Assembly (NCBI RefSeq): GCF_009177065.1 | Contig: NZ_WEZF01000001.1 | Coordinates: 186,001 to 250,000, forward strand | DNA: 64,000 nucleotides | Source of the DNA: Tautonia marina | Lineage (GTDB): Bacteria > Planctomycetota > Planctomycetia > Isosphaerales > Isosphaeraceae | Direction of reading: 5' to 3' | Shown: piece by piece, positions 2,109 to 53,402 of the stretch | How the letters are laid out: every line of letters begins with the position of its first letter | Numbering within the stretch: position 1 is the first letter of the stretch | Made by a program: the position numbers and the translations under genes | Notes under the pieces: model-generated | What the model saw: the letters and a program-made list of their open reading frames with translations, nothing else | Told to the model about the DNA's origin: nothing | Database searches by the model: none

Positions 2109-2932
2109 CCGAATCTCCGTACCGAATCCGTTCGTTCGGGAACCGAACTGAGTCAACCATCGCGGCTCAATCGGGCCTTCCGTGCCTCTCGATCCTCCGC
2201 GCGAACCACGAACGCCCCGCGTTGCGCCCCTCGGATCGGTCGCAAGACGCGACCTCCGAAGGCGGGCGGCGGGCCGTCTCGGTGGCGAAGACTCCTGGGG
2301 GCGGGTGGCCTGGCCGGATGTGTGCGGGGACGATACATCGGCCGGGCCATGCTGTCCAGTCGGATCCCGAGGCTCGTTCAACCGCCGGCTCCGGAATCCC
2401 GAGGGATCTGAAGCGGGACTGTCTCGCCTCTGCTCTGGGAAGGTCTTTTGGAAGGAGGAACGCCGAGAGAGCTGCTCTCGTCGTACCGCTTCCACTCTCA
2501 AATGATGCGTCGCCGCGTTGTCCTGGGTGGCCCCGGTTGCTCGCCAACCGGGGCGGCGCAGCCGCGAGAGGCGACGGGTGGCCGCACCGAGACCGCTCGT
2601 CGCTCCGCGACCCCGGTTGACGAGCAACCGGGGCCACCCAGGAACCCCCCCACCATTTGTGAGTGGAAGAGGTACGACAAATAAAGCTGGGCCCGGTCGA
2701 GTTGCCGTCCCGGTCGAATCCCCCTCACGGCCGGGTGCCGGTCATCGGATCGGGGAACGACGTCCGCACGGAGCGATTATGTCGGCTATGCTTGGGAGAT
2801 CGCCTGGAGCGATTCCCGAGGTGGCGAAAACCAGGTGAGTTACGAAAGATCCGGCGTCTTGCGGCGAAGATCCTTCCCAAGTCACCATTCACGAAGGAAC
2901 TGATGACCCCGGCGTTCTGAGGGAGAAGGACG
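2109..2932. other. Divergent intergenic region between flhA and the NfeD/flotillin pair
   Basis: 824 bp with no convincing gene. It holds repeat R1 copy A and must contain promoters firing in both directions. I could not pick out a convincing -10/-35 pair. Frames that are open here lack ribosome binding sites and show no family resemblance. Confidence 0.6.
2480..2678. repeat. MITE-like palindromic element, family R1 copy A
   Basis: A 199-bp element bounded by 25-bp inverted repeats (2480-2504 and 2654-2678) that match at 23 of 25 positions. Inside are two nested hairpins of the form CCCCGGTTG-5 nt-CAACCGGGG. Each is flanked by GGGTGG or its complement, so the arms at about 2521-2553 and 2611-2642 are also inverted repeats of each other. 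There is no open reading frame of interest and no clear target-site duplication. It lies in the divergent gap between flhA and the NfeD-like gene. Related copies occur at 5510-5632, 40955-41071 and 53206-53402, with a fragment at 44728-44812. Confidence 0.85.
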
Positions 2933-5509: not shown

Positions 5510-5632
5510 CTGGGTGGCCCCCATTGCTCGCCAATCGGTGCGGCGCAGCCGCAAGAGGCTTTCCGGAGGCGACACGGGCACCGCGCATCGCTGCACGACC
5601 CCGGTTGACGAGTGAGCAACCGAGGTCACCCC
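5510..5632. repeat. Repeat family R1, diverged copy B
   Basis: This copy shares the R1 core: GGGTGGCCCC, TTGCTCGCCAA, GGCGCAGCCGCAAGAGGC, then ACCCCGGTTGACGAG and GAGCAACCGAGGTCACCC. Several substitutions and a short insertion spoil the inner hairpins relative to copy A. The outer 25-bp terminal repeats are not recognisable here. It lies 82 bp after the flotillin stop. Confidence 0.7.
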
Positions 5633-5729: not shown

Positions 5730-6348
5730 TCCTTTGTGTCCTGCGGCCAGACAAGGGGGCTCTCTCCACGCTTGCCCGGCATGGCATCAAGTCCTCCTTC
5801 GATTCCTGACCCCCCTCCTCCCAATCCTTCCCCTCCCGTCTTCTCCCGCCTGCCTTCTGCTTACCGTCACCACTCTGAGCCGATGGTGACCAGTCCCATC
5901 CCCGGTTCTCCCATCCCTTCCCCTTGGATCCCGCGGCCCCCGCGCTTCCCCCAGAAGCTCCGGGGCTGTGCTGTTGTTGTCGGCGCGAGATTTGCAGTGT
6001 GCTGGAACCCTTGGATCGACGATCTCACACCGATGCGAACGTCATCCACCACAAGACGATCGTAACGTCCCGAAGTGCCCTGTGTTGTCGCCTGCATCAA
6101 GGCTTTGGCGATGCGCCGCGACGTGCTGACGGCTCCGCAATAAACCGTTGCAATCCTCCTGTGGCCGACGGGGTTCCATCGACCAGGTTGCGGCCAGTTT
6201 CATGAAGATTGGGTAATTCTTCTGTGAAGTGACCGTTTTCGTCATCTCTTGCAACGCGGATTGCCGGAACGACCACGGAAGGCATCCCAACAGATTCGTG
6301 AGCACTGGTGCCGCCCCAACTGTTTCCAGAGTATTTCTTTGTGCAATC

Positions 6349-40954: not shown

Positions 40955-41071
40955 GGGTGGCCCCGGTTGCTCGTCAACCGGGGCGGCGCAGCCGCACGAG
41001 GCTTGGGGTGTCTCTCCGTGGCCTCTCGTCGCTCCGCGACCCCGGTTGACAAGCAACCGGGGCCACCCGCG
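40955..41071. repeat. Repeat family R1, copy C
   Basis: Contains both inner hairpins (CCCCGGTTG-CTCGT-CAACCGGGG at about 40960-40982 and a CCCCGGTTG-ACAAG-CAACCGGGG partner at 41040-41062), flanked by GGGTGG and CCACCC. The outer 25-bp terminal repeats seen in copies A and E are not recognisable. It lies 65 bp upstream of the SUKH gene start. Confidence 0.8.
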
Positions 41072-44601: not shown

Positions 44602-44727
44602 CTGGGTGGCCCGGACCACGCCCGGCGTGGTCTGGGTCGCGAAGAGACACGAGGTGTTCAGGGGAAGCCGGGCCTGAATGAGAGGCGAGGGTGCGTCTTC
44701 GGCCTCGTGCGGCTTCGCGGATGGGCT
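44602..44727. repeat. Repeat family R2, copy 2
   Basis: Starts CTGGGTGGCCCGGACCACG and carries TTCAGGGGAAGCC, TGAATGAGAGGCGAGGGTG and CCTCGTGCGGCTTCGCGG. It runs straight into a fragment of repeat R1, so the two families form a composite here. Confidence 0.75.
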
Positions 44728-44812
44728 CGCTTGCTCGTCAACCGGGATGGCGAAGCCGCAAGAGGCTTGGGGGCGTCTCTCCGTGGCCTCTCGTCGCTCG
44801 GCGACCTCGGTT
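44728..44812. repeat. Fragment of repeat family R1, fused to R2 copy 2
   Basis: TTGCTCGTCAACCGGGATGG, then CGAAGCCGCAAGAGGCTTGG and CTCTCCGTGGCCTCTCGTCG match the interior of R1 copy C closely. The outer arms are missing or degraded. It lies about 250 bp upstream of the porin gene. Confidence 0.7.
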
Positions 44813-45062
44813 TGCGTTGGTCTGGGGACGAAGTCGATCGGGGATGAGGTTCGACATCCTGCCAGGAGGTTTTGGAGGCGTGCGAATCGCGTTGGGGAGT
44901 CGGCCCTGCGAAGGGGGCGATCGGGCTTGAGTGGTTCGCGGATCCGGGGTAAAGAGGGCGTCTTCACATTTCCTTCGCACGTCTGGGCCAGGCACCAACG
45001 GATTTGCATCGTCAGCGGAGCGGATGTCGATCGTTCGACGGACGGGGCCCGGACGGAGTCTT

Positions 45063-53028: not shown

Positions 53029-53205
53029 CGAGTTGGCCTCCGTGCCATTCGAAGCAATCGTGGCGAGCGTGATCGCCACAGGGCGCGATCAGATCCGTGC
53101 GGTTATCGGTTGCTTGCCCCTGAGATCGATAGCGTTTCTCCGAATGTTTGGCATCCGACAGGGGTCGGCACGATCCCGGCTACCCCTGGCAGGACGAAGG
53201 CACCC

Positions 53206-53402
53206 GACTCCCGCTTCCATTCCAAAATGGTGGGTTTTTCCCGGGCGGCCCCGGTTGCTCGTCAACCGGGGTCGCGGAGCGATGAGCGGTCTCAGTGAGG
53301 CGTCCCGGAGCCTCTTGCGGCGACGCCGCCCCGGTTGGCGAGCAACCGGGGCCATCCAGTGCAAAGGGGCGACCCAGCATTGAAGGGTGGAAGCGGTACG
53401 AC
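53206..53402. repeat. MITE-like palindromic element, family R1 copy E
   Basis: 197 bp, inverted relative to copy A. Right end at 53378-53402 matches the copy A terminal repeat at 22 of 25 positions; left end at 53206-53230 is more diverged but keeps CCGCTTCCA. The two CCCCGGTTG/CAACCGGGG hairpins are intact. It fills the gap between two minus-strand genes. Confidence 0.8.

Follow-up and report, generated by a model that had tools for sequence, protein, structure and literature searches.

A REP dimer inside a probable ISAs1-type MITE in Tautonia marina

What are the true ends of a strongly palindromic repeat in Tautonia marina, and what moved it? The repeat, here R1, lies in a window of 64,000 nucleotides (contig NZ_WEZF01000001.1, positions 186,001 to 250,000), and a sequence-only reading had taken it for a non-autonomous palindrome with 25-bp terminal inverted repeats, mobilised in trans. 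Much of that description stands. Copy A (window 2480-2678; G000:C1:188480-188678; 199 nt) carries at both ends GTCGTACC(G/T)CTTCCACTC(T/A)CAAATG, the inverted ends matching at 23/25, and both the nested CCCCGGTTG/CAACCGGGG hairpins inside it and 4 further copies, B to E, are present as claimed. As single-stranded DNA, copy A folds at -85.9 kcal/mol, against -41.8 +/- 3.3 for shuffles (z -13.3). R1 is, however, not one simple MITE with 25-bp ends; it has 3 layers, namely a BIME interior, arms, and an outer repeat. We consider it probable that an ISAs1-family MITE with a REP dimer (BIME) at its centre has left R1 as its decayed core, by the history proposed below.

Features of R1 copies within the window
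Feature	Position	Strand	Basis
Copy A long arm, left terminus of the sequence-only reading (starts GTCGTACCGCTTCCACTCTCAAATGATGCGTCG)	2480..2524	+	profile match 47 bits; sequence
Copy A first REP of the central dimer (GGGTGGCCCCGGTTGCTCGCCAACCGGGG...)	2525..2571	+	REP profile 48 bits
Copy A second, inverted REP	2592..2639	-	REP profile 51 bits
Copy A short arm, right terminus of the sequence-only reading	2647..2677	-	profile match 29 bits
Copy B, bare REP dimer without arms	5512..5631	.	profile search
Copy C, bare REP dimer without arms	40955..41068	.	profile search
Copy D, decayed bare REP dimer	44722..44814	.	profile search; G003 comparison
Possible outer inverted repeat relic beside copy E (CAGGACGAAGGCACCCGA, 12/18; weak)	53190..53207	+	8% of random 158-bp pieces score 12
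Copy E short arm	53206..53241	+	profile search
Copy E REP	53244..53289	+	profile search
Copy E inverted REP	53311..53356	-	profile search
Copy E long arm	53361..53402	-	profile search

The family is real. Searching the T. marina genome (G000) with copy A gives about 45 places (87 hits, both palindrome strands counted), and the closest relative, G003, has about 20 (36 hits), its conserved flanks being 84-93% identical; G002 yields 5 hits, all weak, and G001 yields no hit. The 24-base long-arm pattern, at up to 3 mismatches, occurs at 28 places in G000, at 3 in G003 (each preceded by the outer repeat), and nowhere in 19 other genomes. Thus, at that stringency the arm pattern is confined to 2 of 21 genomes, both of this genus, and REP matches are found in 5 of the 21, other families included. 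In G015, from another family of the same class, related REPs abound (124 hits) and are often arrayed at regular spacing (L050, L054, L058). A literature search for such elements in Isosphaera-like planctomycetes returned nothing relevant.

The part common to all copies is the interior, which in copy A occupies 2525-2639 (GGGTGGCCCCGGTTG...) and consists of 2 inverted REPs, each with the head GGGTGG and a stem CCCCGGTTG..CAACCGGGG. These have the form expected of REPs, that is, imperfect palindromes of 20-50 nt following a GTAG-like tetranucleotide and arranged in inverted pairs, and the head of R1's REP, GTGG, is a REP-head variant already reported (PMC3733652). Moreover, T. marina has a Y1-type transposase gene (G000:C19:97329-97694) that is a REP-associated tyrosine transposase (RAYT), scoring 117.6 bits for NF047646 against a cut-off of 80. 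The gene is bracketed by copies of the same REP: the sequence of copy A's first REP recurs in its flanks, and one adjoining dimer is 98% identical to the interior of copy A. The REPs beside the gene are without arms. RAYTs that are 64-65% identical occur in a Pirellula MAG and a Pirellulales MAG, with REP-profile hits on both sides that are strong in the former (L203) and weak in the latter (L202); the RAYT of G003 (L129) has no adjoining REPs of R1's family.

This bears directly on copies B, C, and D, which had been listed (5510-5632, 40955-41071, and a fragment at 44728-44812) as R1 copies keeping only the interior. They are there and they do lack arms; they represent a second, separately distributed REP/RAYT family. 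Since bare dimers flank the RAYT gene too, an origin of B, C, and D by truncation of R1 was rejected; the bare dimers are therefore part of an ordinary REP/RAYT system, need not be broken copies of A, and were, we infer, moved by the RAYT. Copy D is kept at the same place in G003 (91/93 bases), and the 2.1-kb stretch of G003 that matches the surroundings of copy C has no REP-profile hit.

The 25-bp "termini" turn out to be internal arms of 2 types, long (GTAGTACCGCTTCCACCCTCAAATGATGCGTCGCCCCTTTGCCCT) and short (GTAGTACCGCTTCCACTCAAAAATGGTGGGTTTTTCCT). Armed copies were surveyed by reading about 1 Mb of G000 and 0.3 Mb of G003 in stretches, the remainder of G000 being covered by search. An armed copy has either one long and one short arm or two long arms; two short arms on one element were never seen in the stretches read. 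The arm-REP junction is constant (CCT|GGGTGG), and nearly all arms go with an enclosed REP-like hairpin. The arm pair at C1:310793 surrounds a hairpin that is not a REP, the pair at C1:312097 surrounds a single REP, and a solitary arm in G003 (C8:223k) has no adjoining REP. Armed copies range from about 120 bp, with a single hairpin inside, up to about 220 bp, so that the near-constant length of 197-199 bp read from A and E does not extend to the family. Copy E does have the arms, as had been noted, but their likeness to those of copy A is only loose. The two arms of one element resemble each other no more than arms taken from different elements do (0.591 versus 0.589), and so drift independently. 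No compensatory co-variation between arms was found, and structural selection on them was rejected on that ground.

Nor are the 25-bp repeats the defined ends that had been supposed, as in many copies the conserved sequence runs further outward, and in the best-kept ones it ends in an outer inverted repeat, CAGGACGATTGCAACGTC. The long arm is flanked on its outer side by CAGGACGATTGCAACGTC and a brief variable segment. Beyond the short arm, copies often have a further hairpin or pair of hairpins, GGGTGCGTCGAGTC..GACTCGACGCACCC, and then the outer repeat inverted. An outer-repeat profile reaches 7 bits or more in 5 of 76 armed-element flanks, all excluded from its training, versus 2 of 3000 control pieces, and the repeat is recognisable in only a minority of armed copies. 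The best-kept copy, of 329 bp (G003 C18:100626-100954), has a two-branch fold closed by the outer repeat, whereas beside copy A the repeat is unrecognisable (best match 10/18, the chance level). R1 has the general features of a MITE, having no transposase gene, a size within 70-330 bp, and multiple dispersed copies; terminal inverted repeats are seen in well-kept copies and are unrecognisable in most, A among them.

At the 25-bp arms, where the sequence-only reading would have placed target-site duplications, direct repeats of every length tried, 3 to 10, stay at the level of shuffled pairing, and duplications there were rejected. At the outer repeat, a composite in G000 (C8:4480-4738) is flanked flush by the 10-mers CCTCCGCTCG/CCTCGGCTCG, which agree at 9/10; the G003 C18 composite has a duplication of 7/10 in which all differences are transitions; and for 11 elements chosen at a loose threshold, mean flank identity exceeds that of shuffled pairing (p 0.002). 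Only one duplication among the composites is near-perfect, and the well-ended element in G003 C6 has a 6-bp repeat, not a 10-bp one.

The outer repeat also points to a candidate vehicle. In a sister species, a 1243-bp ISAs1-family IS (G001:C55:12613-13855) has ends CAGGACGATTGCAAAGTC, also written CAGGACGAT(A/T)GCAAAGTC, and an exact 10-bp duplication, AGGTGAGGAG; CAGGACGATTGCAACGTC matches its end at 17/18. The ISAs1 family makes target duplications of 8-10 bp, and a match to the ends of such an IS is what identifies an ISAs1-derived MITE. The transposase of the G001 IS (NF033564; Pfam DDE_Tnp_1_assoc) lies in 2 overlapping frames (L161 2030-3234), the gene being either broken or expressed by programmed frameshifting. 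ISAs1 matches likewise in two parts are seen in G001:C90, G002, G006, and G012, and a related IS in G004, another genus (L193), has the ends CAGAAGGATTGCAAAGTC. Thus, a transposase with matching ends does exist, as had been anticipated, but what it matches is the outer repeat and not the 25-bp repeat; likewise, mobilisation in trans of a non-autonomous palindrome fits the data, but with ends other than those proposed. Right-end IS relics with matching flanks are present in G000 (C7:192113) and G003 (C6:155091). An autonomous IS in the same genome is usual for a MITE, if not strictly required; in G000, no matching intact IS was found beyond the C7 relic, in keeping with old, decayed copies. G001 carries the IS at intact length, yet has no R1 copy. 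Other ISAs1 copies of G000 were examined as a source of R1, and their ends differ.

Comparison with G003 bears on the age of the family. Five copy pairs occupy the same place in both genomes, with interiors 86-99% identical (about 98-99% in two, 86-94% in the others). At one further shared site, the arms agree and G000 has 2 REPs versus 1 in G003; the difference is 80 bp and lies between direct GCCCCGGTTG repeats, so the single-REP state can have come from deletion between them. Empty sites were sought in relatives: copies A and E are missing in G003, and the sister genomes are without the element at the copy-A site, but the exact junctions for A and E in G003 are unalignable, the intergenic flanks being too diverged. 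AAGGACGATTGCAAG is still present in G003 at the place of copy A, so the absence there may reflect loss just as well as a later insertion.

In the most plausible reading, R1 began as an ISAs1-type MITE, took up a RAYT-type REP dimer, spread, and is now in decay. An ancestor of the genus would have carried a MITE bounded by the inverted repeats CAGGACGATTGCAACGTC, with palindromic arms further in, and a REP dimer of the resident RAYT's family would have come between the arms once; the constant junction and the near absence of arms lacking a REP-like hairpin argue for such a single capture. The composite would then have spread when an ISAs1-type transposase acted on its outer repeats in trans, with target duplications of about 10 bp; the end match and 2 duplications are observed. 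In this history, spreading has since stopped, the matching IS has decayed in G000, and ends and arms are now drifting, as the arm comparison and the old copies common to G000 and the sister species show. The bare dimers B, C, and D would have spread separately, with the RAYT/REP system.

The centre of R1 is a REP dimer, a RAYT is present, copies agree best in the interior, and the lack of duplication at the arms is as expected of a RAYT or of single-strand transfer. The RAYT alone might accordingly move everything, the armed form being a long REPIN-like unit and the arms an extension recognised or carried along by the RAYT. We think this unlikely, because the REPs beside the RAYT gene lack arms, many dimers are bare, and the best copies combine duplications with an outer repeat that matches that of a DDE-type IS. 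A two-engine element, in which the ISAs1 transposase moves the whole unit and the REP core is a live RAYT substrate added, lost, or exchanged in resident copies, strikes us as marginally more doubtful; if true, it would be one parasite spreading inside another. Quite improbable, to our minds, is repeated insertion of REP dimers into pre-existing long palindromes serving as hot spots, whether of the host or other repeats, despite a very similar published precedent in Anabaena variabilis and Halothiobacillus neapolitanus (PMC3733652) and the shared site with a dimer in G000 and a single REP in G003 between the same arms. The constant junction agrees with a single capture and later co-amplification, no arm pair was found empty of a hairpin, and the single-REP state is open to the deletion explanation given above.

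The original proposal, a true MITE ending at the 25-bp repeats and moved by an unknown transposase, draws on repeats that stand out in copy A and are seen again in about 35 armed copies. Besides the missing arm duplications and the outward run of conservation, it has against it that conservation is poor over the arm's 9 outermost bases, unlike in transposon tips, and it is in our judgment very improbable. Least credible is the idea that R1 is no decaying mobile element but a structure under selection, for instance a transcription terminator or a structured RNA. The very stable fold and the high interior identity of 2 shared copies between species speak for it; the absence of compensatory arm co-variation and the lower identity of the other shared copies do not, and an Rfam search, which matched no family, disposes of a known RNA family.

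The ISAs1-type MITE with a captured REP dimer has partial parallels in known systems. Like REPtrons (REP/BIME with RAYT; PMC2817692, PMC8266576), R1 has palindromic REPs headed by a tetranucleotide-like GTGG, arranged in inverted pairs, present on either side of a RAYT gene, and dispersed in many copies; unlike in REPtrons, most copies here are enclosed in a larger palindromic element with IS ends. QMITE2 of Coxiella burnetii is a MITE with an internal REP, direct repeats of 7-11 nt, and about 50-60 copies, in full-size and small REP-like versions conserved between strains (PMC5896051). Compared by architecture, R1 resembles it in these traits, with direct repeats in two composites, and differs in that its core is a REP dimer, that G000 has a RAYT with the same REPs adjoining, and that its ends match an ISAs1-family IS. 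In A. variabilis and H. neapolitanus, REP dimers are enclosed in long palindromes never seen without REPs (PMC3733652), much as the R1 dimer is enclosed by complementary arms; R1 has in addition an outer layer, with IS-like ends and duplications, and so a likely vehicle. It shares with ISAs1-family IS and their MITEs its end sequence and, in two composites, duplications of about 10 bp, but has no transposase gene and has lost recognisable ends in most copies. R1 is best filed beside the PMC3733652 palindromes and QMITE2, adding to them the REP/RAYT pairing and the likely vehicle. It offers a clear case of one parasitic DNA lodged within another, both of known kind, and a concrete answer to the small puzzle of some REP dimers being always found inside a longer palindrome, as the palindrome can be a MITE that captures and carries REPs. 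It also puts a planctomycete lineage among those with a REP/RAYT pair and a REP-bearing MITE, with partly decayed and orthologous copies from which the spread could be dated and traced.

Some related sequences lie apart from the composites. A solitary CAGGAGGATTGCAAC in the window (6147-6161, minus strand), with no adjoining arm or REP, is 1 mismatch from the outer repeat. At G000:C8:183452-183516 (L120 13452-13516), a bare outer-repeat pair of 65 bp, CCGGACGATTGCAATGCCC..CCATTGCAATCGTCCTG with flanks TCCCGCACCG/CCCCACTCCG, looks like a minimal MITE with R1's outer ends. A second palindrome, GGTGCGTCGAGTC..GACGCACC, occurs beside the short arm, single or as an inverted pair (L121-L126; G003 C18:100860-100930), and also at G000 C1:290426-290452 and C1:464975-465001, both exact C1 copies adjoining R1 elements.
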